In this document: positions 2,636 through 18,421 of the stretch, in pieces
How positions within the stretch are numbered: position 1 is the first letter of the stretch
Layout: each line of letters starts with the position of its first letter
Assembly: GCF_000482505.1 (NCBI RefSeq)
Contig: NZ_AXVL01000004.1
Span: forward strand, 62,001 to 126,000
DNA length: 64,000 bases
Direction of reading: 5' to 3'
Source: Leptotrichia trevisanii DSM 22070
GTDB taxonomy: Bacteria; Fusobacteriota; Fusobacteriia; Fusobacteriales; Leptotrichiaceae
Notes under the pieces: generated by a model
Told to the model about the DNA's origin: nothing
Database searches by the model: none
Seen by the model: the letters and a program-made list of their open reading frames with translations, nothing else
Made by a program: the position numbers and the translations under genes

Positions 2636-4375
2636 CTAATATATTATTTCTCTCACTTCTACATCTAAAGCCTCTCCTATAAATGCATTACAATTTTTTT
2701 CATTTATCTTCTTTCCAGCCATATTTTCACAAACAGCTAATTTATCTTCTTTACTTAAATATGCGATATAGCTTAGAAAATATTTAGCTCTAGAAGCCCC
2801 AACGTGCATTACTTTTTTATGAATTTTATTATTAAAAATTTCCTTTTCAATATCAATAAGAATCACAACTGCTGCTTCCAATCCTTTATATTTTCTAGCT
2901 GTTGTGAATAAAATTCCTTTTTCTCCAAGATTATGCGTTATAACAAAATTCCCAATTTTACTGTGTCCTGCTAAAATACTTTTATTTTCTGTCTTTACAG
3001 TTAATATCACTATTTTAGAAATTGGTATCCCATCATTTACATATTTTTTTATTTCATCGTTTAATTTACTCAAAATTTGTTCTTTTTTAGAAATAATATA
3101 AAAAACTGGTTTTGTACCTTGTACATTGTCACGCAATTTGCACTTTTTTATTCCTAATATTCTATTTGAGGAAGAAGCAATACTTTTTGTATTTCGACAA
3201 TTTATAGATAATACTAGCCTGCATTCAATTCTGTCTGTCGAAAGTATCGAAATAGAACCTTCCTTATTTACAAGTTGATTTTTGTCGTAAAAAACATAAA
3301 AACAACTATCCTCTATTTCAGCAATTGTATACAATGCACTAATTTCATCATGTGTAAAATCCTGACCTTCATCAATAATAATATGCTTATAATCCCAGTT
3401 ATAATCACTATAGTTATTTAAAAAATCTAATTTTTCTTGTAATGTTGAATACTGTCCTTTTATCTTATAATGTTTTTTTACCAGTTTATCCATACTAAAA
3501 AAATAAGTATTTGGCAATTCTTCTTTGTATTTTTCTAATAAATATTTATATAAAAATTCATTAAAACATAAGAACAATACTTTATCGTTCTGTGTTTCTG
3601 GATTCTGTAAAAGTCTACGAGCCTTCTCAATTGCCAGCATAGTTTTTCCAGTTCCAGCACCACCTTGTATTGCTGCAACACGCTGTTCATCTAGATATTC
3701 AATGAGCCTAACTTGTTCTCTTGTCATTCGATTAAAATAATATTCAGCCTCTTCCATTATATTTGAAACACTCATAATTACATTAAATTCAGGAGAGAGA
3801 GTTCTAATAACATTAGTTTCATCATTTTTATCGTAAAGGCTGTTTTCCTTAAAATTATAGTAGTCAAAAACTCTTTTAATTGCCTTTTCAATATTATTTA
3901 AATCTTTTTTTATAAGCAGATTACCTTCACTAAAGTTCGGTGGTAAAGAACCTAATTGGTTATAACTTTCAGCCATTGTAAACCACACTGCACATTCTAC
4001 ACGATATTCCCTTCCTGAATTAATATTTTTTTCTAATAAGTCAATAAATGTATATTTACTTCTCTCTGCTTGTACCATTGGATCTTTCATATTCTTTCGT
4101 TCTTTAGTCCTACTATTAACTTGACTCCATTCCCCATTCTTACAATAAATCTCTCCAGATTTCACTTCTATAACTAGAATCCCTCTTTTAGGATGAAAAA
4201 TGGTAAAATCGCTTTCTCCCCAAAACACTCCATATTTCTCTTTTCTATTCCAATGCAAAGAATAAAAAACAATATAGTCATCGGGCAATTTTGACAGTGC
4301 CTTGTATATTTGATACTCTCCATAACTGTTGTGAAAATTGGATTCTGTTAGATTTGTTGGAATTATTTTTGCCAT
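2636..4375 (-). CDS. NERD-domain UvrD/PcrA-like helicase
   Basis: The protein has 579 residues. Residues about 12-100 form a nuclease-related NERD domain: GEYQIYKAL, a GESDFTIF strand and IEVKSGEIYCKNGEW, giving the D...ExK pattern of PD-(D/E)XK folds. A superfamily 1 helicase core follows. Walker A is QGGAGTGKT near residue 240 and Walker B is IIIDEGQDF near residue 335. RKYKGLEA near residue 510 and VGASRAK near residue 545 fit motifs V and VI. It probably cuts or unwinds nucleic acid. It is the last gene of the accessory cluster, 53 bases after the HsdR-N-like gene. NERD-helicases are frequent in defence islands, but whether this one acts with its neighbours is inference. Confidence 0.85.
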   Translation of the reverse strand: MAKIIPTNLTESNFHNSYGEYQIYKALSKLPDDYIVFYSLHWNRKEKYGVFWGESDFTIFHPKRGILVIEVKSGEIYCKNGEWSQVNSRTKERKNMKDPMVQAERSKYTFIDLLEKNINSGREYRVECAVWFTMAESYNQLGSLPPNFSEGNLLIKKDLNNIEKAIKRVFDYYNFKENSLYDKNDETNVIRTLSPEFNVIMSVSNIMEEAEYYFNRMTREQVRLIEYLDEQRVAAIQGGAGTGKTMLAIEKARRLLQNPETQNDKVLFLCFNEFLYKYLLEKYKEELPNTYFFSMDKLVKKHYKIKGQYSTLQEKLDFLNNYSDYNWDYKHIIIDEGQDFTHDEISALYTIAEIEDSCFYVFYDKNQLVNKEGSISILSTDRIECRLVLSINCRNTKSIASSSNRILGIKKCKLRDNVQGTKPVFYIISKKEQILSKLNDEIKKYVNDGIPISKIVILTVKTENKSILAGHSKIGNFVITHNLGEKGILFTTARKYKGLEAAVVILIDIEKEIFNNKIHKKVMHVGASRAKYFLSYIAYLSKEDKLAVCENMAGKKINEKNCNAFIGEALDVEVREIIY

Positions 4376-5497: not shown

Positions 5498-5926
5498 TTA
5501 ATATTCATAACTAATTTCTTCAAATCTCTCCAAAATATATTCAAATAATTTCTTTTGCAATGCCACTACTCCATCATCTAAATTTGTATCAAATTCATAT
5601 ACATTATCATCTGAATCTAAAAAAATATAATCTCCATCACCCTTATTTTCAAATGCAATTAATGATTTTGTTTCTGGAAATTGTTCATTTAATTTTAGAG
5701 TATCTTTTACCATATCTGAATCAAATTCCTGTTTTTTATTTATTCCATAAAATTCTACAAATTTAAAAGCTAAAAAACCATATTCTAAAATATATTTTTT
5801 TAATTCCTTCCCAAAATTAAAATTTAATTTTTTTTCATATTTTTCAATATCTTCTTCTAAAATTAAATTATCTTTCTTACATTGTAATATATCATTATTT
5901 TTTAAAAATTCAACTAATTTATCCAT
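5498..5926 (-). CDS. SMI1/KNR4 (SUKH) family immunity protein
   Basis: The 142 residues show the SUKH fold pattern: an EEDIEKYEKKLNFNFGKELK helix entering the domain, YGFLAFKFVEFYG, and a central LIAFENKGDGDYIFLD hairpin with GDYIFLD typical of SMI1/KNR4 proteins. SUKH proteins are among the commonest immunity proteins of bacterial polymorphic toxins. The gene begins 46 bases after the LHH nuclease gene, exactly where its immunity partner is expected. It probably binds and neutralises that nuclease in the cytoplasm. The SD before the ATG is AGGAGG-like. Family call is confident; the pairing is inferred from position. Confidence 0.85.
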   Translation of the reverse strand: MDKLVEFLKNNDILQCKKDNLILEEDIEKYEKKLNFNFGKELKKYILEYGFLAFKFVEFYGINKKQEFDSDMVKDTLKLNEQFPETKSLIAFENKGDGDYIFLDSDDNVYEFDTNLDDGVVALQKKLFEYILERFEEISYEY

Positions 5927-5972
5927 TTTTCCTCCTAAATTTTTATTATATTTTTAACAATTTATTTTTTAA

Positions 5973-6632
5973 TTATCTTTCTAACATCGCTAATCTGCTT
6001 CTCCAATGTTTAGGTCTTTGTATGTTATTATACTCTCTTTTTAATTCAGGATCACGTCTCCAACTTTCTATACTATTATCATGTAAAATTTTATGATTTT
6101 TACCGCCATGTTCACTATTTTCAGTTAATTCAGCAAATGGTGAATCAAATTTCTGATCCATATGATGAAGTTCTATTTTTTCACCTGTTTTTTCATATAT
6201 TGGAGCCATTCCTCTTTCCATACGTTCTTTATTACTTAATCCTGTTTTTTCATCTATATAATCTAAATCTAAATCTTTCTTTACTAAACATTTTCTTCCA
6301 TTAATTTCTTTTTCTTCTAAATCAGCAGCTTTATAAATTTCATACTGTTTCATATTTTTTATACAATCAATAATTTCTTTTGACCATCCTGTCTCTTCCC
6401 TTATCCTAGTTTTGTCACTTTCAGATATAGCAGGAAAACTTAATTTATTCAAATCAAGATTCTTTTCTTGATTCAATGAATTCAAAGATTCTAGTGAACC
6501 CGATTTTACTAAATCTAAATCTTGTTCTATAATTTTACCATTTTTCAATTCAGAAATTCCAAATTCTTCTAAATTGCCTATTTCATTAGGTTTAACTGAA
6601 TTTTCAACAATAGATTTAATAAATTTCTCCAT
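5973..6632 (-). CDS. LHH-type HNH/Endo VII nuclease toxin
   Basis: Residues about 75-215 match the LHH subgroup of the HNH/Endonuclease VII fold. They show TRIREETGWSKEIID, EINGRKCLVKKDLD, NKERMERGMAPI, the diagnostic IELHHMDQ, GKNHKILH and SWRRD. In this family the first His of LHH and the later His residues bind metal and attack DNA. Such domains normally form the C-terminal tip of very long secreted toxins. Here only about 70 residues precede it, with no signal peptide and no LXG, RHS or adhesin region. The ATG lies inside the 3' end of the HerA-like ATPase gene (17-base overlap), with AAAGGGG upstream, so the two are translationally coupled. The SUKH gene follows. The nuclease call is strong; delivery route and target are unknown. 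Confidence 0.9.
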   Translation of the reverse strand: MEKFIKSIVENSVKPNEIGNLEEFGISELKNGKIIEQDLDLVKSGSLESLNSLNQEKNLDLNKLSFPAISESDKTRIREETGWSKEIIDCIKNMKQYEIYKAADLEEKEINGRKCLVKKDLDLDYIDEKTGLSNKERMERGMAPIYEKTGEKIELHHMDQKFDSPFAELTENSEHGGKNHKILHDNSIESWRRDPELKREYNNIQRPKHWRSRLAMLER

Positions 6633-9600
6633 TTTTTATTTCCCCTTTCAATTTTTCAATTATTTCATCAATCTCTTTATCCGTTATTATAACAAAGAAA
6701 TTCTTTATACTACTTATAATATCAATCTCAGCTATATTTTCTAATGTTATTTTATATATTATTTCTTGAATTAAAATTTCTTTGACCTTTTCTTTTAATC
6801 GTCTTTCGTATTCTTTCTCCATTATTTTTTTTAATTCAGTTATATTTTCTTCTTCAGGATACTTAATACTCTCCATTATTTTACTAAACAATTCTTCTGA
6901 TACTATTTTATTTAAGCTGAATATTCCATTTCCTAGAAATTTTACTACAGATTCTACTATTTTTTGTGATAAAATTTTATTTAATTCTTCTAAAGTTGGG
7001 AAAATTAATTTGATATTTTTAGAAATTAAGCTGTTTTCGATTTCTTCCTTAATTTTTCTTATAGATTTTATTACTATATCTGTATCACATATCATTAAGG
7101 TTCTTAATAATTTGATTGATTTTTCATCTATTATATCTTGCAAACCTGAATCTATAATACTTAAATTTATACGCTCCTTTCTTTCTTCAGGTTCTTTACC
7201 ATATAGTTTTGAATCTGAAATAAACTTATCATGAACATAATTTACTTTCACATTTATTGGATTTGCCATTCCTTCTTTATGGCAGACTGCAAATCCAGTC
7301 TTTAACATTCCCAAGTAAAGTGCATCCTCTCTTGAAAGTCCAATCGTATTTGCTATTATTTCCTGATCATCATAAGAAACTATCCTATGAATAATCTTAT
7401 TTGATGAATTTTTTATTACATCTGGAGCAAGTTTAGTCGGTATCTGCTCAGCAATAATAACTCCTTGTCCGTATGAACGCATTTCTGCTATCATATTTGT
7501 AAAATGCTCTACTGCTTTTCCTTTAGGATTTCCCATATTTTCTGATATTCTTTCTGTACCAATATTTTTAAGTAATCTATGTGCTTCTTCAATTACTAAT
7601 AAATGCTGTAATTCTAATTCCTTGCTTCCTTCTTCTTCTTTTTTTACTTGCCGATATTCATTAATAAATATTATAAGCAACCCTACACAAAAAGCTTTAT
7701 CTGAATCATCTGCAAGTCCTTCCAATTCAAAAATAGTATTTTTGTTTAAAAGCTTTTCTATGTTAGCAAATTCATTTGTATTAAACATGAATCCTTTTGC
7801 ACCATTACACAGACTTTCCAATCTTGTTTTTATAGCTGATTTTATATTCCCTGAAACTTCTCCTTCATATTGTAATTCTTTTTCTATGTATCTTTCAACC
7901 TCACATTTCAAATCATACATAGTTGGGAAAAGAAATTTGTGTGACGAAAGATTATATTTTTTATTCATTTTATCAATATCAAATAGATTATTAAAGCTTT
8001 TTTCGTTTATTAAATAAGGATGATACCCCAATACTAAATTCCAGCCTTTTTTAATATATATGTTTTGAAGACATTTTTCAAGAATATAGGGCATTGGACC
8101 ATAAAATGAAAAAGAAGCATTAAATAAATCCTTTAAAAAATCAATATGCATCTGAGGACTTATTCCTGGAAGTATATAAAACGGATTCATCTGTAAGCAA
8201 TTTATTTCAGGTTTTCCAAGAGTATAAACTTCAACATTTGTATTATTTTTAAGTTCAATATTTCTATATTCTTTTTTAGCTGGTTCTATTACCATAAATG
8301 GTTTTTCACAGTTTGATAAAATATTTTTAACGGTTGTAGTTTTTCCACTTCCTGTAATCCCACATACAAAAGTATGTTTATTTAAATCATCTTCTGTCAT
8401 TTTAAAACTCATATTGTCTATAATATTCCCATTGTCTGAAACTTTTCCAATTTCAATTGTTTCTCCATTTGAATCAGGTAATCTCAATGAATACTGCCTT
8501 TGATTTATTAATTCAAAATTAGGTGTGCTGTCAGTTGGTAACGTACATATCAAACTTAATTCTGTAGAACTTAAATAAGTTGCCAGTGGATTTTCCATTT
8601 CTTTATCTGTCATTCCTTTTGGAATAAGTAAAGTTTCAGAAATATTATCAGAACTAAATGATTTAGCTGGTAATAATTTGGAATTTGGTTTTGCAATTTC
8701 TCCGCTTAACGATGATTGTATAAGATTTCTTGCTAATTTTGAATCTGAAGAATAAGTAATCACAGTTTTCCACATTCCACAAGTTTTTCCTAATTTGAAT
8801 CTTTCAATTCCTTCTTCTGCATATTCCATTAACTCTAAAGCAAAACTATTTTGTACATCTCCTGAAATTGTTTCATTATTTGAAATAGCATTTGAAACAC
8901 TATCACTCCAATTTTTTCCTTTAGACCAATTGTGTGAATAAGAAACTCCTCCTCCAAATACCCAAAAAAATCCAGCATAAGCTCCTACTGTATGAGATGT
9001 ATTTTCACTTTCTCCTTCAGTTCTAGTATCAGTCTTAGTTTTCCCCTGTTGTCTAGCAATATTTCTTTTACTTACTGCAAAACAGTTATCCTTAATTTGA
9101 ATTAAATCTTCCATTTTTTTTGAAACTACATTTTCTGATACAGGAGTTGCAATAAATAATAATGTATAATTTTCACCATTCAATCCTCTCATTAGAGGAG
9201 AAATATCAAACTTCTGTTTTTTATTTTCAATTTTACAAGAAGGAATAGCTGAAAATATCCCATTATATCTATTAATACATTTTTCAAATTTAGGTTCAAT
9301 TTCTTCTAATTCTATTCCTAACAATAATCCTGAAATAACTTTTTTTATTAATTCTATATTTTCAGTATTATTAATCCCAAAAACAATATTAGCCATTCCA
9401 TCTATTGTTACTACTCCGTATGTTACAGTTAATCCTAACGGATGAATAGCAGAAAATAATTTTTGCATTTTTTGATACAAATAGTCAAATTCATCTCCGA
9501 TTTTTTCAACAGAGCAACTTTTTATCCTAAAATATTTAAATTTATTCAAAATTGATGAAGAATCTTTTTCAATATACGATTCAAGCTGATTTTCTCCAAT

Positions 9601-9705
9601 TAAATAGTGTGGATATAAAGTTTTCAAAAGTTCATTACCTTGTATTGTAATAACTTCTGTATCTCTTCTAAATTCTTTTTCATGTTTTTCTAGTTCATTC
9701 TCCAT
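6616..9705 (-). CDS. HerA/FtsK-type ATPase (DUF87) with long N-terminal region
   Basis: The 1029-residue protein has a C-terminal motor with Walker A GITGSGKTTT near residue 453 and Walker B LLVIEEAHRLL near residue 710. The later EQIPTKLAPDVIKNSSNKII stretch is typical of HerA and VirB4 pumping ATPases. Residues 1-440 are unusual. They include a Gly/aromatic/Ser segment near residues 235-275 (GAYAGFFWVFGGGVSYSH) inside a Ser/Thr-rich stretch. About 200 charged helical residues follow the motor. The frame opens at a TTG, but the SD GAGGAG at 9713-9718 selects the ATG at 9705, one base after the previous stop. It overlaps the nuclease gene downstream. Probably a hexameric motor moving DNA or protein. 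The motor is sure; the substrate is inferred at most. Confidence 0.9.
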   Translation of the reverse strand: MENELEKHEKEFRRDTEVITIQGNELLKTLYPHYLIGENQLESYIEKDSSSILNKFKYFRIKSCSVEKIGDEFDYLYQKMQKLFSAIHPLGLTVTYGVVTIDGMANIVFGINNTENIELIKKVISGLLLGIELEEIEPKFEKCINRYNGIFSAIPSCKIENKKQKFDISPLMRGLNGENYTLLFIATPVSENVVSKKMEDLIQIKDNCFAVSKRNIARQQGKTKTDTRTEGESENTSHTVGAYAGFFWVFGGGVSYSHNWSKGKNWSDSVSNAISNNETISGDVQNSFALELMEYAEEGIERFKLGKTCGMWKTVITYSSDSKLARNLIQSSLSGEIAKPNSKLLPAKSFSSDNISETLLIPKGMTDKEMENPLATYLSSTELSLICTLPTDSTPNFELINQRQYSLRLPDSNGETIEIGKVSDNGNIIDNMSFKMTEDDLNKHTFVCGITGSGKTTTVKNILSNCEKPFMVIEPAKKEYRNIELKNNTNVEVYTLGKPEINCLQMNPFYILPGISPQMHIDFLKDLFNASFSFYGPMPYILEKCLQNIYIKKGWNLVLGYHPYLINEKSFNNLFDIDKMNKKYNLSSHKFLFPTMYDLKCEVERYIEKELQYEGEVSGNIKSAIKTRLESLCNGAKGFMFNTNEFANIEKLLNKNTIFELEGLADDSDKAFCVGLLIIFINEYRQVKKEEEGSKELELQHLLVIEEAHRLLKNIGTERISENMGNPKGKAVEHFTNMIAEMRSYGQGVIIAEQIPTKLAPDVIKNSSNKIIHRIVSYDDQEIIANTIGLSREDALYLGMLKTGFAVCHKEGMANPINVKVNYVHDKFISDSKLYGKEPEERKERINLSIIDSGLQDIIDEKSIKLLRTLMICDTDIVIKSIRKIKEEIENSLISKNIKLIFPTLEELNKILSQKIVESVVKFLGNGIFSLNKIVSEELFSKIMESIKYPEEENITELKKIMEKEYERRLKEKVKEILIQEIIYKITLENIAEIDIISSIKNFFVIITDKEIDEIIEKLKGEIKNGEIY

Positions 9706-9706
9706 T

Positions 9707-10315
9707 TTATTTCTCCTCAAAATAATTAATAATATCTCTTACTCTTTTATTGTAGTATTTTTCAATTTCATGAAACCAAGCAATAAATTCTTTTTTTGTC
9801 TTATCTAAAAATTCATCTACAGCCTTTTCCAAATTTCTTTTATTTGCTGAGGGCTTTAAAAAATAAGATGCTCCAAAAGCCATAATTGCTCCACAAATTA
9901 TAGCAATAAAAGGAATATTTATATTATTTTGTAACACATATTTCAAAATTCCACCTATTGCCATCGTTCCTGCCGCCATTCCAAGTGAAGTGTATAATTT
10001 ATTTGCTTCTTTATAGTCAATTTTATTAGTCACTTGAAATTTATATTTTTCTAATATCTCTTTTTTTATATTTGTTTCATAAAATTTACTTTTTCTTTCA
10101 ATATCTTCAAATTCTTTAGATGCTAAAGTTCTTTTTGACATTTCTGAATATATATCTGTAATTAACATTTTACTTTTAATCGTCAAATCTAATGAAATTT
10201 TGTCAATAATTTTTTTAATTATACTGTCTATATTTGAACTTAAATTGAATACTTCATATGATTCTTTTTTTAAATCTAAAAATATTTCATCTATATCTTT
10301 TTCTCTATTATACAT
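9707..10315 (-). CDS. small protein with a helical membrane hairpin
   Basis: The 202-residue protein is not recognised. Residues 1-100 are charged and helical with coiled-coil character. Two hydrophobic segments, near residues 110-130 and 135-153 (MAAGTMAIGGILKYVL and IPFIAIICGAIMAFGASYF), are separated by a short polar turn. A charged helical C-terminus follows. It overlaps the 3' end of the dynamin-like gene by 8 bases and its last codons carry the SD of the ATPase gene, so the three must be made together. Dynamin-like proteins usually carry their own membrane paddle, and the neighbouring one lacks a visible hydrophobic paddle. A plausible inference is that this protein supplies the membrane anchor in trans. 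Confidence 0.7.
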   Translation of the reverse strand: MYNREKDIDEIFLDLKKESYEVFNLSSNIDSIIKKIIDKISLDLTIKSKMLITDIYSEMSKRTLASKEFEDIERKSKFYETNIKKEILEKYKFQVTNKIDYKEANKLYTSLGMAAGTMAIGGILKYVLQNNINIPFIAIICGAIMAFGASYFLKPSANKRNLEKAVDEFLDKTKKEFIAWFHEIEKYYNKRVRDIINYFEEK

Positions 10316-12341
10316 ACTCTTTTATTTCCTTTCTTAAATTTTCAATTTTTTCTTTAAATGTATTTACTTCTTGAATTATACATCTTAGTTTCTCAATTTT
10401 TTCTTTTATTTCTTCTGTTTTCGCTTTTTCTTCAAGTAATTCATTTAATTTTTGTTTTTCTTCATTTGCATTTTTAAATAATTCTTCTGTATATTTGTCA
10501 CTAATACTACAAACAAAATCTATTAAATTATTCACAACTTCTTTTTGAATTTTTTTTATTCTATCAAGTATATTATTTTTTAGTACTTCAAAATGTTTAT
10601 TTCTTGAATATTCAGAATAAAAATGTGTTTTCTTAAATGTTACTCCAGTTTCATAAGACTTTTCTTCATTAGCCTCTTTTTCAGTTTCATCCTTCATATT
10701 TTTAAAATCTTCTTCTGTAAAATTCGGTTCTAATACTTGATATGATATTTTTGATCCGTCACTTAATAAAATTAATGTTTCATTACATTCTTTAACTATT
10801 TCTTCCTGTATAACTTTTTGAAATTCTTTTTGCTCTTCTATTTTTCTAAACGATATTTTTTCTAATTCATTTATGGAATTATCATTTTCTGCATCAAGAG
10901 ATTTAATTTCTTTTTCTAACTCTGAAATTTTTTCTTCTGCTTTTTTTTCTATTATCCCTTTAGAATTTATATATTTGAATCTTACTTCATCTACTTTTCT
11001 ACTAATTTTTATATTAATTTCATCAATTTTTTTCTGAATTTCATTAATTTCTTTTGCAAATTCAGTAGGATCTTTTGTAATTTTAGATTCATACCGTTCA
11101 ATATTATCACTTATACCAGCTTTTATTTTCTCACAAATATTTGAAATATTATTCACTGCCTCATTTAAAGCATAATACTGTGATTTTCTTGCAAATTTTT
11201 CTATTGCTTCATTTATGTCTTCAAATCTTGATTTTTCTATTAAGTATTTCATATAACTACTTTTTTCTGATACATTTATTGGTGGATTCATAAAACCTTC
11301 AATTTGATTGTTATTCTGTAATTCAAATAAATATTCTTTTATATCATCATAAGTTGAATATTTTGAAATCTCATTAAGAAACATCTGTACTTTACTATCT
11401 ACTACAACTATCTGTCCCTCATCAACTTTACTTCCATACTGTTTTTTTGCCTCTTCTTTTTGTTTTTCTAAATTCTGATTATTTAAATCTGCTGCACGTG
11501 TTAGTATTAAAAATAAAGTTCCCTTATTTCTTTCTACACTTCCCTTATCTAAAAATTTTTTGAATGAAGTTGATTCTAATGCCTGTCCTGTTATAGATTT
11601 TAAAAACATTATTGCATTTGCTGTTTCTATATAATTTTCACTTACATCTCCTACATGTCCTGCTGCATTTACTCCTGGACTGTCTATTATTTCTATATTT
11701 TTTAGTGATTCTATTTTAAATGGATATAAAATTACCATTTTTGTAATAATATTCTGCCATTTATTTTTATTTTCTTCAATGTACCTTTTTATTTTACCAT
11801 TGTATTCTTCTTCAGGTAAATTGTATATATTGTCTTCTTTAACCTCTTCTATTAAATTTTCTACTACTCTTTCAGATATTTTTCCTTTGTATTTTACTAA
11901 TATCTCATTGTTAATAGTTGGAACAGGTATATCCCTATAATCATCATTTAATGCGGCATTATCTTTCAAAAATTTTGCTATATCCTCTTTACCTTTTATC
12001 TGTTCTTTTTTACCACCAGCATATTCAGCCAGTAAAGAAAATTCTTCTCCATATTTTATTTCTATAATTGAACTTGTACATTGCTTAACATCCATAGGAA
12101 GTATATCTTTACCTAAATAAGCATTTATAAAAGTAGATTTCCCACTTTTTGCTTCTCCTGCTATCATAAGTACAAACTTATCTTTCTTTATGTTTTCAAT
12201 TTGGTTATTCAAGCCACTTATTGGTTTCTGAATTTGTCTTACTTTCTCTTTTACATCATTTTTTTCTATTATTTCCTGAAATTTCTCATTTAATTCTAAT
12301 ACTTTCTGTTTTTTTTCCTCATAATTATTTTTTTGAATCAT
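10308..12341 (-). CDS. full-length dynamin-like GTPase
   Basis: The 677-residue protein has a dynamin-type GTPase domain in the first 390 residues or so. G1 is GEAKSGKST near residue 62, followed by a switch-like QCTSSI. G3 is IIDSPGVN near residue 220, and a G4-like LTRAADLN lies near residue 283. Residues 390-677 are long charged coiled-coil helices like a dynamin stalk. No strongly hydrophobic paddle is visible. Bacterial dynamin-like proteins bind and remodel membranes, some in response to phage or membrane damage. The 5' region (GGAGAATAGCAAA, then MIQKNN) is nearly repeated at the next gene upstream. The coupling downstream to the membrane hairpin protein and the ATPase suggests a joint complex, which is inference. 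Confidence 0.9.
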   Translation of the reverse strand: MIQKNNYEEKKQKVLELNEKFQEIIEKNDVKEKVRQIQKPISGLNNQIENIKKDKFVLMIAGEAKSGKSTFINAYLGKDILPMDVKQCTSSIIEIKYGEEFSLLAEYAGGKKEQIKGKEDIAKFLKDNAALNDDYRDIPVPTINNEILVKYKGKISERVVENLIEEVKEDNIYNLPEEEYNGKIKRYIEENKNKWQNIITKMVILYPFKIESLKNIEIIDSPGVNAAGHVGDVSENYIETANAIMFLKSITGQALESTSFKKFLDKGSVERNKGTLFLILTRAADLNNQNLEKQKEEAKKQYGSKVDEGQIVVVDSKVQMFLNEISKYSTYDDIKEYLFELQNNNQIEGFMNPPINVSEKSSYMKYLIEKSRFEDINEAIEKFARKSQYYALNEAVNNISNICEKIKAGISDNIERYESKITKDPTEFAKEINEIQKKIDEINIKISRKVDEVRFKYINSKGIIEKKAEEKISELEKEIKSLDAENDNSINELEKISFRKIEEQKEFQKVIQEEIVKECNETLILLSDGSKISYQVLEPNFTEEDFKNMKDETEKEANEEKSYETGVTFKKTHFYSEYSRNKHFEVLKNNILDRIKKIQKEVVNNLIDFVCSISDKYTEELFKNANEEKQKLNELLEEKAKTEEIKEKIEKLRCIIQEVNTFKEKIENLRKEIKEYV

Positions 12342-12371
12342 TTTGCTATTCTCCTTTATTTTATAATATTT

Positions 12372-13322
12372 TTAAATATATTTCTTTATTTCTTCTCTTA
12401 AATTTTTAGCTTTATTTTCAAATAAAGTTATTTCTTTAATTAGATATTCTAATTTGTCAACTTTCATTTTTATATCACTCTCGTTTTTTTCTTCTAGTAA
12501 CTCATTAAATTTTTGTTTATGTTCATTTGCATTTTTTATTAACTCTTTTACATACTCACTACTAATATTATTAACAAAATCTATTAGATTATTCACGACT
12601 TCTATTTGAATTTCATTCATTTTACCAAGTATATTTTCCTTTAGTATTTCAAAGTGTTTAGTTTTTGAATATTCAGAATAGAAATATGTTTTTTTAAATA
12701 TTATTCCTGTTTCATATGATTTTTCTTCAAAAATATCTTTTTTAATTTCATCTTCCATATTTTTTAAATCTTCTTCTGTAAAATCTAGTTCTAGTGTTGG
12801 ATATATTGCTTCAAATCTATCAATTAATGCATCAAATTCTTTGTTGTATTCTTCTACTATATCTCTTTGTATAATTTTACAAGACTCTTTTAATTCTTTT
12901 ATTTTTTCTAATGATATTTTTTTTAATTCATTTATGGAATCATCATTTTTTGTATCAAGATATTCGATTTCTTTTTTTAACTCTAAAATTTTTTCTTCCG
13001 TTTTTATTAGTATTATTCCTTTAGGATTAATATATTTTTCTTTTACTTCATCTATTTTTCTACCAATTTTTATATTAATTTCATTAATTTTAGTTTTAAT
13101 TTCGTCAATTTGAACTGCAAATTCAGTAGGATCCTTTGTTATTTTATCTTCATATAACTTCATTTCATATTTTAAACCATCTTCTATTTTTTTACAAATA
13201 CTTGGGATTTCTTTTATTATTTCATTTAAAGCATAATATTGTTCTTTTCTTACAAATTTTTCTGTTCCTTCATTTTCTAATACTTTATTCTTTTTTTTAT
13301 TATCACTATTTTTGTGAATCAT
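12372..13322 (-). CDS. stalk-only dynamin paralogue (no GTPase domain)
   Basis: The 316 residues align with the coiled-coil half of the neighbouring full-length dynamin-like protein, from its residue about 390 to the end. Shared stretches include QYYALNE, ITKDPTEFA and EEKSYETG. The first 17 residues (MIHKNSDNKKKNKVLEN) instead resemble the very N-terminus of the full-length protein, and the RBS region is also nearly the same. So the gene looks like a dynamin gene from which everything between codon 20 or so and codon 390 is missing. It carries no P-loop. It has its own SD (AAAGGAG) and starts 68 bases after the GTPase-only gene. It could be a working subunit or a fragment; the long intact frame favours use. 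Confidence 0.8.
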   Translation of the reverse strand: MIHKNSDNKKKNKVLENEGTEKFVRKEQYYALNEIIKEIPSICKKIEDGLKYEMKLYEDKITKDPTEFAVQIDEIKTKINEINIKIGRKIDEVKEKYINPKGIILIKTEEKILELKKEIEYLDTKNDDSINELKKISLEKIKELKESCKIIQRDIVEEYNKEFDALIDRFEAIYPTLELDFTEEDLKNMEDEIKKDIFEEKSYETGIIFKKTYFYSEYSKTKHFEILKENILGKMNEIQIEVVNNLIDFVNNISSEYVKELIKNANEHKQKFNELLEEKNESDIKMKVDKLEYLIKEITLFENKAKNLREEIKKYI

Positions 13323-13390
13323 TTTACTATTCTCCTTTTTTTAATTAGGCATTTTCAATTTTTTATTTTTTTTGTACTTTTTATTATACA

Positions 13391-14440
13391 CTATTTAATT
13401 ACTTTTCTTAAATTTTTAACTATAAATTTTAAAATTTCTTTATACGCGTTACTAAAATTAGATTTACTTTCCAAATATTTAATGTAATCAGCCTTATTAA
13501 ATTTTTTTATGTTTATTGGTGGTGTCATAAAATTAAAATATAAACCTTCTTTTTCCAACTTTTCCAAATATTCCTCTATTTCTTTTGAATCCATATCTTT
13601 AATCTCATTAATGAAAAGTTGTACTTTGCTATCTAAATATTCTATTTGTTGAGTATTTACCTTATTACCATAAATTTTTACTGCTTCTTTTTTCAGTATT
13701 TCTAATTTTTCTTTTGTTTCACTTGAAGAATGAGTTAATAATAAAAATACATTTTCTTTATCTTTATTATTAGTATTTTTTTCAATAAACTTTATAAATG
13801 AATTTAACTCTAAGGCTTGTCCTATTATTGGTTTCACAAATATTATTGCATCAACATTTTTTATAACTTGATTTGTTATATCTCCTAATCTTCCCTCAGC
13901 ATTGACACCTGGGCTGTCAACAATTATTACATTTTTAAATACTTCATTTTCAAAAGGATATGATATTTCTATTTCAGTTATTATCTTATCCCAGTTTTGT
14001 TTATTTTGAATATAATTTTTAATTTTTTGGCTATATTCTTCATAACAATATCCGTAAATATTTTCTTTTTCTACACTTTTAATAAAATCTTTTATACTTT
14101 TTTCATTAATATCATCTTTATTTTTTAATATAAAATTATTTATAAGAAATACTGGTAAATCTCTATATTTGTCATCAATTGAGGCTCCTTCTTTCAAATT
14201 TTTCCTAATTTTTTCAAAATTTGTTATAATTCTTGAACTATTCATATATTTTAAAATTAAAGATAATTTTTCTCCATATCTTATTTTTATAATAGAATTT
14301 GTACATTGTTTAGCATCAGTAGGTAAAATTTCTTTTCCTAAAAATGCATTAATAAAAGTTGATTTCCCGCTTTTGGCTTCTCCTGCAATCATTAGTATAA
14401 TTTTATTTTCCCTTTTTTTATAGTTATTTTCTTGAATCAT
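13391..14440 (-). CDS. GTPase-only dynamin paralogue (no stalk)
   Basis: The 349 residues match the GTPase half of the full-length protein encoded downstream. The start MIQENN is shared. G1 GEAKSGKST lies near residue 18, QCTNSI follows, G3 IVDSPGVN lies near residue 178, and the G4 position (LTHSSSE) has lost the usual T/N-K-x-D pattern. About 35 residues before G1 are missing compared with the full-length protein. The frame ends at KFIVKNLRK, just where the stalk-only protein begins with KFVRKEQYY. Together the two genes make up one complete dynamin-like protein in two parts. This is the promoter-proximal gene of the cluster, with an AAAGGA SD. A heterotypic dynamin pair is a reasonable inference. 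Confidence 0.85.
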   Translation of the reverse strand: MIQENNYKKRENKIILMIAGEAKSGKSTFINAFLGKEILPTDAKQCTNSIIKIRYGEKLSLILKYMNSSRIITNFEKIRKNLKEGASIDDKYRDLPVFLINNFILKNKDDINEKSIKDFIKSVEKENIYGYCYEEYSQKIKNYIQNKQNWDKIITEIEISYPFENEVFKNVIIVDSPGVNAEGRLGDITNQVIKNVDAIIFVKPIIGQALELNSFIKFIEKNTNNKDKENVFLLLTHSSSETKEKLEILKKEAVKIYGNKVNTQQIEYLDSKVQLFINEIKDMDSKEIEEYLEKLEKEGLYFNFMTPPINIKKFNKADYIKYLESKSNFSNAYKEILKFIVKNLRKVIK

Positions 14441-14480: not shown

Positions 14481-14508
14481 ATTATACCACACCTTCAAAT
14501 ATTTTCAA
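14481..14508 (-). promoter_or_regulatory. promoter of the dynamin/ATPase/nuclease cluster
   Basis: TTGAAA (14503-14508) lies 16 bases before TATAAT (14481-14486), which is preceded by TGG (an extended -10). It sits 41 bases upstream of the first dynamin-like gene and could drive the whole minus-strand cluster. Confidence 0.7.
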
Positions 14509-14705: not shown

Positions 14706-15602
14706 TTATTTTATAAATCTCATCATGCTCCACTTAATCTCCGGCATCTCAAAATTCCTATCAAATTCCATCATAAACTCCTTATATGTAGGCACAATTA
14801 TTTCCCCTGAATCCTCATATTTAAGTGTATTCTTTAATGAAACTATATATGCGTTTCTAAGTTTTCTTGTTACTTGAGACATTATTGAACCCGGAACATT
14901 AAAATACACATAAGGAATCATTGATTCTGATAATTTTTCTTCCAAATTATTTTTTTTAACATCTTCTTCTATAATATCTTTAATTCTCTTTTTTATAGAA
15001 GGAACTATTGTCCACATCGAATTATTAATTCTAAATTTCTTGTCAATTCGATAAACCATAACATCCCAAATTCTTTCAATTGAAGTTTTAACATCAAAGT
15101 CAGGTCCTGCCATCAAATTAAATGGATGAATAATACATCCTCCAATATTTATCCCAATACCTAGTTGATTATTTCTACGGCTACATATTATTCTCTTTCC
15201 AATTGTAAGATTATCTTTGTTAGATGCGGCTTCTTCAACAATTTTTTCTAATTCCTTTTCAATTTCTTCTGGACTTTTGTTTTTTTCTTTTTCCAGTTCT
15301 TCCTGTTCATCCACAATTGCCATTTCCTGCTTGCATATATCTTCTTCAGCTATAATTCCTAAAAGATTTGATACTGTTTCCAATGCTTCTTCCTCGTCAG
15401 TTCCATCTGCATAAATAGTAATTTCTGAACCCATTTTAATTCCAAAACCGCTTAACATCAATGAAGATTTATTTTTTATTTTTTTTCCATCATACTCAAT
15501 TTCAATTTTACTTTCAAATTCTCGTGCTTTTCGCATAACCTCCGTAGTAAAATATATGTCTATTCCGTAGCGGTAATTAAAAATTATTGTTTTACTAACC
15601 AT
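14706..15602 (-). CDS. HPr-like (Crh-like) domain fused to an unknown domain
   Basis: Residues 1-85 align without gaps to the PTS phosphocarrier HPr: an MVSKT start, GID at 13-15, IEIEYDGKKI, KSS at 45-47, and GSEITIYADGTDEEEAL. The catalytic His15 is replaced by Asp, so it cannot carry phosphate from enzyme I. Ser46, the regulatory site used by HPr kinase, is kept. This is the pattern of the regulatory protein Crh. A charged linker (about 85-130) and a 170-residue C-terminal domain of unknown type follow, which HPr and Crh never have. The SD is AAGGAG. It follows the coiled-coil gene by 36 bases in a three-gene unit headed by a WYL regulator. A sensory or regulatory role is inferred. Confidence 0.8.
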   Translation of the reverse strand: MVSKTIIFNYRYGIDIYFTTEVMRKAREFESKIEIEYDGKKIKNKSSLMLSGFGIKMGSEITIYADGTDEEEALETVSNLLGIIAEEDICKQEMAIVDEQEELEKEKNKSPEEIEKELEKIVEEAASNKDNLTIGKRIICSRRNNQLGIGINIGGCIIHPFNLMAGPDFDVKTSIERIWDVMVYRIDKKFRINNSMWTIVPSIKKRIKDIIEEDVKKNNLEEKLSESMIPYVYFNVPGSIMSQVTRKLRNAYIVSLKNTLKYEDSGEIIVPTYKEFMMEFDRNFEMPEIKWSMMRFIK

Positions 15603-15638: not shown

Positions 15639-16361
15639 TTATACTTTTCTATTCATCCCCTTCAACTCCTCTTCCTTCCTATCCCTAAACATCTCCTCAA
15701 TCTCAATTTTATTCACAAATCCTTCCCTTTTTAAGAGTAATTTTTCATATTCAGATAACAATTTTTGTCTTTCTGCCTCTTTTTCTGCTAATTCTGCTAA
15801 TGTATCTATTAGTTTTTTACTTAAATTTACTCTTTCTGAATTGATAACAAGATCCAATTTTAACTGTTTTTCACTAAGTATTGAATTGTATAGTTTTCGG
15901 GACTGTTTTATTGTATTTTTTAAAATTTCCTTTTTTCTATTGGTTTCAGTCCACACGTTTGTAAACTTATTTTCTTTCTTTATTTCCTGTGATAATTCTT
16001 TTTTATAATTATTAATTTTGCATACTTCATTATAAAGTTTTGAATTATATTTATTTTTTATTTCTCTTATAAATTTTTTTAACTCAAATGTATAAGGATA
16101 AACTCCATTTTTATCATTTATTATCAGTTTATCTTTTTGTAAATCATAATCGATAAAAACTTCCTTTAATGCTTTTATTTTTTTGTGAAAAAAAGCAATT
16201 TTATTTTCTACTCCTTTGATTTCCCATTCTTTCATAATTATTTCCCAATTGCTTTTTATCAATATTGAATGATTCTGATCAATTATGCTATCTATTTCTT
16301 CAAGTTCTGAAATAAATCTTTGAACATCATCAGAATACTTATTAAAATTAAAATTTTCCAT
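15639..16361 (-). CDS. coiled-coil protein of unknown function
   Basis: The 240-residue protein is not recognised. It is almost entirely charged helix with two coiled-coil stretches, near residues 5-70 and 150-235, the latter rich in Glu, Leu and Arg (LAELAEKEAERQKLL). There are no membrane segments, signal peptide or enzyme motifs. Its SD GGAGG lies inside the last codons of the upstream WYL regulator gene, with only two bases between stop and start, so the two are co-translated. The HPr-like gene follows. It could be a structural partner or adaptor for either neighbour. Confidence 0.7.
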   Translation of the reverse strand: MENFNFNKYSDDVQRFISELEEIDSIIDQNHSILIKSNWEIIMKEWEIKGVENKIAFFHKKIKALKEVFIDYDLQKDKLIINDKNGVYPYTFELKKFIREIKNKYNSKLYNEVCKINNYKKELSQEIKKENKFTNVWTETNRKKEILKNTIKQSRKLYNSILSEKQLKLDLVINSERVNLSKKLIDTLAELAEKEAERQKLLSEYEKLLLKREGFVNKIEIEEMFRDRKEEELKGMNRKV

Positions 16362-16363
16362 TT

Positions 16364-17296
16364 CTAATCCTCCAATATTTTTACTTTTTTCCCTTGACTT
16401 CTAAGCCACATTTTAATTCCTTCTTTTCCATAAATTTCAGCCCAAATTGTATATTTTTTCATATTATTTTCCAAATTTTCCTCTTTCTTTATTTCTGCCG
16501 TTGGTAACCTATCCAGAACTACTTCTTTCAGCCCTGTATATTCAAATTTTACTTTATGCAATTTTCCTGAATACATAAATTGTATCCTTTTTCTAAATTC
16601 TCCATCTTCAAATCTTGAATTATACGGAATATCAAATTTTTTATTTGTATTTCTGACTTCCGTTATTCTGTCAATCCTAAAGACAATTGGTATCTCATCA
16701 TCTTTATTTACCATAAATACAATTAGATAAAAGTAAAATTCTGAAAACATTATTGAAAGTGGCTTTACTGCATGAAATTTCTTTTTTCCAATGTTAGACG
16801 TATATTCAATTTCTATAATTTTTCTGTCAGTAATGTATTTGGATAAATTCCAAATCGATTTAAGGAGAGGTTTTCCGTGTTGTAATTGAACATAGTTAAA
16901 TCGCTCATTTTTTATGATTTTTTCAATTCTCTTATAGCTGTCACTACTGGCTGCCTGCTTTGCTATTTTCCTTAAAAGAATCTCTAATTCTTCCTTACAA
17001 AATGCTCTACTTTCCAGCAATATTTTACTAATTGCTAATATTTCCTCATTAGTAAATACATTTATATTCACATCTTTTTGCAGTTCATAGCCCTCTTTTT
17101 GCCAATTATATACAACCTTGCTTTGATTTTTTTCAGCATAATAACTGTTTAATGTATCAAAATCACGCTGAATACTCTTTTCACTAACTCCATATTTCTC
17201 AGACAATTTTTTCTTTTTTAAAATTTCTCCTTTTTCCAGTTTTTCCTTAATTTCTATAAACCTAAATAACTTCTCTGTTTTTACTGACTTTTCCAT
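16364..17296 (-). CDS. WYL-domain transcriptional regulator
   Basis: The 310-residue protein has a winged-helix DNA-binding region in residues 1-60 (LSEKYGVSEKSIQRDFDTL). A WYL-type ligand-binding domain follows, around residues 155-225, with IIEIEYTSNIGKKKFHAVKP and FYFYLIVFM in the place of the WYL triplet. A C-terminal WCX-like part ends at about 305. Regulators of this type bind nucleotides or nucleic acid and often control defence or DNA-damage genes. The frame can start five codons earlier, but the ATG at 17296 has the well-spaced AAAGGA. It heads a three-gene unit and has two possible promoters plus a palindrome upstream, consistent with self-control. Confidence 0.9.
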   Translation of the reverse strand: MEKSVKTEKLFRFIEIKEKLEKGEILKKKKLSEKYGVSEKSIQRDFDTLNSYYAEKNQSKVVYNWQKEGYELQKDVNINVFTNEEILAISKILLESRAFCKEELEILLRKIAKQAASSDSYKRIEKIIKNERFNYVQLQHGKPLLKSIWNLSKYITDRKIIEIEYTSNIGKKKFHAVKPLSIMFSEFYFYLIVFMVNKDDEIPIVFRIDRITEVRNTNKKFDIPYNSRFEDGEFRKRIQFMYSGKLHKVKFEYTGLKEVVLDRLPTAEIKKEENLENNMKKYTIWAEIYGKEGIKMWLRSQGKKVKILED

Positions 17297-17364
17297 CTTT
17301 TTCCTTTCCATAAAATTTAGTGAATCAATATTTTCATTTTATTTATAATTTGTATATCCTTAGA

Positions 17365-17420: not shown

Positions 17421-17437
17421 TGGACACTTTTTGTCCA
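17421..17437. promoter_or_regulatory. palindrome, possible WYL operator
   Basis: TGGACA and TGTCCA arms flank a 5-base spacer. A second TATAAT (minus strand, about 17410) lies just downstream, so the palindrome covers the expected -35 position of that upstream promoter. Operator function is inference. Confidence 0.45.
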
Positions 17438-17494: not shown

Positions 17495-17528
17495 CAAAAA
17501 AATCACAGCTAACTGAATAACTGTGATT
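17495..17528 (-). terminator. terminator of the PanA-PemK/MazF pair
   Basis: An 8-bp perfect stem (AATCACAG/CTGTGATT, 17501-17508 with 17521-17528) with a 12-base loop is followed on the minus strand by a T-run. Confidence 0.85.
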
Positions 17529-17549
17529 CTTATTCTTAAAATACTTTCA

Positions 17550-17930
17550 CTATTCTAATAGTCCTTCCATAATTTCATTGTGAAATTGCTCCACTTTTTC
17601 CACTATTTCTAAAAATAGCTCTTCGTAATCTAATTTTAAATCTCCTATTATAACACTTGTATCTATTTGCTGTCTTGGTATTGAAACTATTCTGTGTGTT
17701 CTAACATACGATAATCTTGTCAAATTTATTTTAGGAAATTTTACTGGATCTATTTCTATATCGTATATCGGATTTACGTTTGCTCTATTTGAAATACTCG
17801 AGATAGGAAGGACTACGTAATCATCATTTACAGGACTTTTTAATACTAACGCAGGTCTTGATTTAATGGAATTTCTCTGTAATCTTATATCATAATATTG
17901 GGTTAAACATTTGACTATTTTACCTATCAT
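17550..17930 (-). CDS. PemK/MazF-family toxin
   Basis: The 126-residue protein shows the MazF/PemK fold: a GKIVKCLTQYYDIRL strand region, SRPALVLKSP in place of the common RPALVI, YVVLPISS, and a C-terminal LDYEELFLEIVEKVEQF helix. Members are usually mRNA endoribonucleases. Its ATG shares one base with the stop of the upstream Panacea gene (TAATG), a strict translational coupling typical of toxin-antitoxin pairs. The order here is antitoxin first. Cleavage specificity cannot be read from the sequence. Confidence 0.85.
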   Translation of the reverse strand: MIGKIVKCLTQYYDIRLQRNSIKSRPALVLKSPVNDDYVVLPISSISNRANVNPIYDIEIDPVKFPKINLTRLSYVRTHRIVSIPRQQIDTSVIIGDLKLDYEELFLEIVEKVEQFHNEIMEGLLE

Positions 17931-18421
17931 TAAACTATCACTTCATAATCTTCAAATTCGTCATAATACATATCCCACATATAATCATAAGGCCTTACTT
18001 TTTTTGCATCTTCTCTTATATCTTCCATTTTAATTTTCACATTTCCATTTTCTTCCTTTTTAAGTCCTTTTCGTGAGTTAAGCCACGAAGTTTCTTTATG
18101 TGTCAATACACTTAATTTCCACGAAGCCAATGCCCCGTATTCTTGAATTATGTTATTTATTATGTATTTACTTTCGCTTTTTATATCTTCTGTTTGTGCA
18201 TTTATACCATCTTCAGTAAAAACTGTTCTAACCTCCCTAGAAACAGGTCCATACTTCCACCCCTCAAATACTTCGTTAAAAAGAGGCTGATTTAAAATAG
18301 CAAATGTTTCTCTCTGTGAAAAATATAATAATTTTTGCAATTTCATTTCATCAATAATTTCTTCTGTTACTCTTTTATATTCATTGAAAATATACTGAGC
18401 AACATTTATTATTTTTTCCAT
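17930..18421 (-). CDS. Panacea-domain antitoxin (PanA)
   Basis: The 163 residues match the Panacea (DUF4065, SocA-like) family. INVAQYIFNEYKR at the N-terminus is followed by MKLQKLLYFSQRE near residue 26, then FEGWKYGPVSREV near residue 70, and LSVLTHKETSWLNSR near 118. Panacea domains neutralise many unrelated toxins. It is directly coupled to a PemK/MazF-like toxin, so this is a PanAT pair with a ribonuclease-type toxin. A strong promoter lies upstream and a terminator follows the toxin, so the pair is a self-contained unit. Confidence 0.85.
   Translation of the reverse strand: MEKIINVAQYIFNEYKRVTEEIIDEMKLQKLLYFSQRETFAILNQPLFNEVFEGWKYGPVSREVRTVFTEDGINAQTEDIKSESKYIINNIIQEYGALASWKLSVLTHKETSWLNSRKGLKKEENGNVKIKMEDIREDAKKVRPYDYMWDMYYDEFEDYEVIV

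Follow-up and report, generated by a model that had tools for sequence, protein, structure and literature searches.

The window analysed here is a stretch of 64,000 nucleotides from Leptotrichia trevisanii DSM 22070 (contig NZ_AXVL01000004.1, positions 62,001 to 126,000). A first-pass annotation had singled out the open reading frame at 14706-15602 without giving its strand; the frame is real and lies on the minus strand. It belongs to a unit with the following features.

17498-17531, minus strand: terminator-like hairpin between a MazF-like gene and the WYL unit (3 found against 0.5 expected)
17421-17437: palindrome TGGACA-N5-TGTCCA, overlapping the -35 element of the candidate WYL promoter; candidate operator
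17437-17409: candidate WYL promoter, TGGACA-17-TATGAT
16364-17311, minus strand: WYL-domain transcription regulator with an N-terminal HTH (PF13280, 29.4 bits; 97% in L. hongkongensis)
15639-16361, minus strand: 240-residue coiled-coil-like protein (coil240) between the WYL gene and the fusion gene
Ahead of the fusion-gene ATG: Shine-Dalgarno-like AGGAGAT
14706-15602, minus strand: HPr-DUF697-like fusion gene, 298 residues
14481-14508, minus strand: promoter-like site before the dynamin genes (11/12, extended -10)

Comparisons were made with 13 Leptotrichia genomes (G000-G012, of which G000 is the window's own) and with a phylum set of 98 Fusobacteriota genomes; genomes outside Fusobacteriota were searched for close relatives only. 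The full-length fusion was found in 3/98 Fusobacteriota genomes, which belong to three species of Leptotrichia. The orthologue in L. hongkongensis (L023) shows 90% identity and that in a third genome, G001 (L024), 88%; the closest named relative found was L. hongkongensis JMUB5056 (89% over the protein). A mobile origin was rejected: a set of 72,556 plasmid records contained no full-length relative, 50,697 phage records yielded none for the C-terminus, and viral contigs had none either. PADLOC gave no match for the fusion itself. A search of the open-access literature returned no description of an HPr-DUF697-like fusion, in keeping with the earlier statement that the arrangement is undescribed. 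Two possible additional relatives were discarded. In G009 (L020), a weak resemblance to HPr falls within a 482-residue ORF that reads like a phage portal protein and has internal stops over the matching part, and a GIDI motif in a DUF697-like protein of G081 (L084) was not supported by alignment as an HPr remnant.

The WYL gene lies two genes upstream of the fusion on the same strand, so that the operon with a WYL regulator proposed in the first pass holds as an arrangement; the operon is presumably co-transcribed. The palindrome precedes the WYL gene in the window and in L. hongkongensis (G003) and a WYL relic in G012, and across the 13 Leptotrichia genomes it has one further copy, within a coding ORF of the window's own genome. 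The WYL protein probably regulates its own gene through this palindrome on its promoter. The unit is not intact everywhere. In L. hongkongensis coil240 is deleted; in G001 a WYL relic (residues 239-315, with stops) and a coil240 relic (residues 205-240) stand ahead of a fusion that is intact; in G012 nothing but the beginnings of the WYL and HPr genes is left. The ancestral operon was WYL, coiled-coil protein and HPr fusion, with the conserved palindrome at its head. Since L. hongkongensis has lost coil240 and G001 has broken copies of both genes, the fusion is not strictly dependent on WYL and coil240.

Within the fusion gene, the following parts were delimited.

15348-15602, minus strand: HPr-fold domain, residues 1-85 (PF00381, phmmer against the PDB, AlphaFold and Foldseek)
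15552-15560, minus strand: codons 15-17 of the active centre, reading Asp-Ile-Tyr where HPr has His-x-Arg; Phe18 comes next
15465-15467, minus strand: Ser46 codon
15213-15356, minus strand: charged linker predicted to be helical, residues 83-130; its length differs in G001
14730-15212, minus strand: divergent DUF697-like domain, residues 131-291 (profile and hhalign chain)
14706-14729, minus strand: last codons of the gene; here the homology to the two orthologues stops (recombination junction)

Residues 3-81 match Pfam PF00381 (PTS-HPr) at 53.1 bits (cut-off 23), and the HPr subfamily model TIGR01003 is reached at 50.5 bits (cut-off 47.9). The best match among solved structures is S. aureus HPr (1ka5), aligned without gaps over residues 12-82 (phmmer against the PDB, E = 7e-12). 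An AlphaFold model of residues 1-89 (pLDDT 79) has the strand and helix order of HPr and retrieves HPr structures in Foldseek at TM 0.81-0.87. These results agree with the gap-free HPr alignment of the first 85 residues reported earlier and with an HPr fold for this segment; a chance resemblance is rejected by the Pfam score, the PDB alignment and the Foldseek matches, and the HPr identity of the N-terminal domain is firm. A tree of 35 HPr domains places the fusion with the ptsH genes of Leptotrichiaceae, at the end of a long branch (1.63 changes per site), with support for this placement (83/92) that is not strong. The HPr half most likely descends from a ptsH gene of Leptotrichiaceae. Canonical HPr genes with an intact His are still present in the window's own genome.

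The active centre and the partner-binding face have changed extensively. As the first pass had noted, His15 is replaced by Asp and Ser46 is kept in the window protein; both residues are invariant in 3/3 full-length homologues, so that no relative without Ser46 was found among them. Arg17 and Pro18, present in 32/32 sampled HPrs, are Tyr and Phe in the fusion, and the phosphorylatable His15 with Arg17 is thus absent (Asp15, Tyr17). The recognition helix reads KSSLMLSGFGI in place of KSLLKLLSIGI. At 18 positions that we take to bind partners in HPr complexes, the fusion keeps 4 of the residues of its host's HPr, against 29/65 elsewhere (p = 0.11, not significant alone).

Three other roles of the domain were weighed. 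Asp15 might itself be the phosphoacceptor, with Enzyme I phosphorylating it and the acyl-phosphate making the protein a sensor of the state of the phosphotransferase system (PTS). Enzyme I is present and Asp15 is invariant in the three fusions; moreover, E. coli HPr carrying His15Asp has reportedly been studied as an acyl-phosphate acceptor, so that the earlier wording by which Asp15 bars phosphate transfer was too strong. Structures of this E. coli variant (1cm2, 1cm3 and 3ccd) are among the Foldseek matches of the HPr half. Listeria HPr His15Asp mutants nevertheless lose >96% of PTS activity (PMC3526391). With the invariant Arg and Pro of HPrs replaced and most of the positions facing Enzyme I changed, we give a phosphorylated Asp15 very little credence. 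Alternatively, the domain could be a decoy that titrates Enzyme I or HPr-binding targets and slows PTS uptake when the operon is induced. It has the same fold and is related to the ptsH of its host, and decoys often have dead active sites, but a decoy should keep the face that is largely replaced here, and this role is quite improbable in our judgement.

The third is the role suggested in the first pass, in which HPr kinase would phosphorylate Ser46 and the protein would report carbon status to the locus in the manner of Crh. The HPr fold, the loss of His15 as in Crh and the Ser46 of all three fusions speak for it. The HPr kinase model TIGR00679 matched 0/13 Leptotrichia genomes and 69/98 genomes of the phylum, some of them in the same family, although these searches were also silent in a B. 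subtilis control genome and true members may be missed. Using a Fusobacteriota HPr kinase as protein query added nothing credible in Leptotrichia, and the kinase-domain model PF07475 had no match in the window's own genome. For CcpA, the best match scored 134 bits against a cut-off of 442 and none reached it; a distant functional equivalent is possible. Ser46 occurs in 28/32 sampled HPrs, Leptotrichia ones included, and its retention is no evidence of signalling because the ordinary HPrs of kinase-less Leptotrichia keep it equally. The recognition helix and the partner face have been rewritten, unlike those of Crh. Crh-like signalling was therefore rejected and is scarcely credible. Because Leptotrichia has no detectable HPr kinase or CcpA, the fusion is probably no carbon-status sensor, and is probably a repurposed binding module.

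The kinase survey also gave two observations on the phylum. HPr kinase is absent from the 13 Leptotrichia genomes and from many Leptotrichiaceae while most other Fusobacteriota have it, an apparent lineage-specific loss. Where present in other Fusobacteriota, it usually consists of tandem domains in one ORF of 610-680 residues.

For the C-terminal half, which the first pass had called unknown, Pfam returned no family at E up to 10 (PF05128, DUF697, was not reached), the PDB contained no relative, and the full-length AlphaFold model (two sequences) had a pLDDT of 39. To that extent the description stands; the domain is nevertheless identifiable as DUF697-like through intermediates. A profile of the three orthologues found two proteins of about 200 residues (L026:14678-15274 and L058) at E = 8.5e-5 to about 9e-5, the next match being at 0.07 (among 2009 ORFs of the fetched loci) and the best E among 100 column shuffles 0.0096. 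By hhalign the C-terminus matched these small DUF697-like proteins at 86.6% (100 shuffles, at most 3.6%), and the latter matched DUF697 GTPase tails at 98.3%. A joint profile of the C-terminus and the intermediates found GTPase-DUF697 proteins directly (E = 6e-8 to 8e-7), with matches confined to two Leptotrichiaceae genera among the 98 Fusobacteriota genomes. The claim rests on this chain of intermediates because hhalign run directly between the C-terminus and DUF697 tails gave no significant result (0.3%). Through the intermediates, the assignment of this half to a divergent form of DUF697, a domain that forms the tail of IRG/Era-type GTPases, is well supported.

Window and L. hongkongensis DNA are about 91-93% identical as far as 14730, which is eight codons short of the stop of the fusion gene, and share nothing beyond. 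On the far side both carry a dynamin, a small membrane-type protein and a HerA-type ATPase of different subfamilies (HerA 29% identity), and in G001 a GTPase-DUF697 gene adjoins the fusion. GTPase genes thus lie near the fusion in all three genomes, but no single family of them recurs at every locus. The surroundings are a hotspot of GTPase cassettes in which the fusion has no one fixed GTPase partner gene. The promoter-like site at 14481-14508 suggests that the dynamin genes form a separate transcript.

The window array at 6616-14440 encodes a dynamin of 677 residues, a second dynamin copy split into 349 and 316 residues, a 202-residue membrane-type protein and a 1034-residue HerA-like ATPase; L. 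hongkongensis (L025:1134-7127) has the same architecture with different subfamilies. The dynamin-HerA array may be an undescribed defence module. In other genomes (L024, L090, L091, L092 and L093) the neighbours are recurrent: a GTPase-DUF697 protein, a 155-186-residue protein, a calcineurin-type phosphatase, 281- and 449-residue proteins without assignment and a small DUF697-like protein are seen in varying combinations. Elsewhere in the window, a 305-residue FtsZ/tubulin-family protein (1567-2484) lies beside the island, and an 80% homologue borders the G001 island. A NERD-UvrD-type helicase is encoded at 2636-4375 (PADLOC RTasNERD-Hel, 245 bits). At 5498-6632 an LHH-type nuclease adjoins a SUKH immunity-type protein, the remnant of a polymorphic toxin/immunity pair. 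On the other side of the WYL unit, a MazF/PemK-like protein overlaps a SocA/Panacea antitoxin-type protein (17550-18421; 98% identical in L. hongkongensis).

Although its neighbours have been lost or replaced, the fusion is open in 3/3 genomes and its length changes are in-frame only. Its dN/dS of 0.33-0.46 exceeds the 0.07-0.12 measured for the ptsH genes that these genomes carry. Synonymous changes are in excess (Fisher p = 0.0002-0.008) and pN/pS is significantly <1. These data favour a gene that is kept but loosely constrained, under weak purifying selection. The main rival explanation is that the gene is on its way out, the function of the operon being lost and the fusion merely lacking a stop codon so far. 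The WYL and coil240 relics of G001, the missing coil240 of L. hongkongensis, the near-complete loss in G012, the few genomes that carry the fusion and the weak constraint are all consistent with decay. Against it stand the three open frames, the pN/pS ratio and the in-frame length differences, together with the ribosome site in the window and the palindrome kept on the WYL promoter in the window and in L. hongkongensis. We consider decay somewhat unlikely.

As the best explanation we tentatively propose that the fusion is a two-part non-enzymatic adaptor, a dead HPr joined to a DUF697-like tail, made from a WYL-headed operon and serving local GTPase or dynamin genes. Its N-terminal domain, a ptsH descendant, retains the HPr fold, but the phosphorylation centre is gone (His15Asp, Arg17Tyr, Pro18Phe), as is most of the partner face. 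Its C-terminal domain is a DUF697-like GTPase tail from which both the GTPase and the hydrophobic hairpins are missing. The gene stands third in the operon, within a hotspot that exchanges dynamin- and IRG-type GTPase cassettes, and would be expressed when the WYL protein leaves the promoter. We infer that the DUF697-like part then binds a GTPase of DUF697 or dynamin type whose gene lies at the hotspot, and the dead HPr domain would offer a binding surface to a second partner. Against such an adaptor count its presence in only 3/98 genomes, the lack of a shared GTPase family, the end of identity to L. hongkongensis at the end of the gene, dynamins that seemingly have their own promoter, the broken or missing WYL and coil240 genes of the relatives, a dN/dS above that of ptsH, the non-significant direct comparison with DUF697 tails and the poor full-length model. 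In a bolder version, a ptsH copy would have become the subunit that senses or docks in an immunity-type module built on a GTPase (dynamin/DUF697); the dead HPr would respond to a cue from the PTS or from infection, and the DUF697-like part would control whichever GTPase is swapped between strains behind the constant WYL-HPr head. We think this version improbable.

HPr domains are nearly always read as parts of sugar transport, and annotation pipelines would label the fusion 'HPr family phosphocarrier protein'. It would be an HPr that has kept its fold while its phosphorylation centre and partner face were erased, joined to the tail domain of a GTPase in a genus that apparently has no HPr kinase, and it illustrates that catabolite control should not be read from Ser46 alone. 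Were the adaptor role true, it would tie a PTS-derived fold to bacterial dynamin/IRG-type GTPase modules.

Among known systems, LeoABC (Eleos) and other dynamin defence modules resemble the downstream dynamin, membrane-type and HerA genes, which have weak PADLOC LeoBC and HerA matches; they differ in that the fusion has no such match, and any defence role here would be putative. The DUF697 family (PF05128) aligns in register with the C-terminal half through the 195-204-residue Leptotrichia intermediates, sharing the block MIYQI-EKF, the block EAYI-LKN and an acidic end, EF--NF, whereas the fusion has neither a GTPase domain nor the hydrophobic glycine-rich hairpins and lies below Pfam detection. 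FruB/DTP, DhaM and the multiphosphoryl transfer proteins likewise contain HPr as a module among others (PMC2405797). A 368-residue FruB-like protein with tandem HPr domains and intact His was also seen on an IMG/VR contig (L077:27-1133). FruB/DTP, DhaM and the multiphosphoryl transfer proteins differ in that they keep, to our knowledge, the phosphorylatable His and have PTS enzymes as their fusion partners. HPr/PtsH (PF00381, TIGR01003) shares fold, length and a gap-free alignment with the N-terminal half, at about 40-46% identity to Leptotrichia HPrs, and differs in retaining His15, Arg17, Pro18 and the binding face and in not being joined to another domain. Crh of B. subtilis is alike in having the HPr fold, His15 lost and Ser46 kept. 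It differs in keeping Arg17, Pro18 and 12/18 face positions relative to B. subtilis HPr and in acting with HPr kinase and CcpA, neither of which was found in Leptotrichia, and it is a single domain, whereas the window protein is a fusion.
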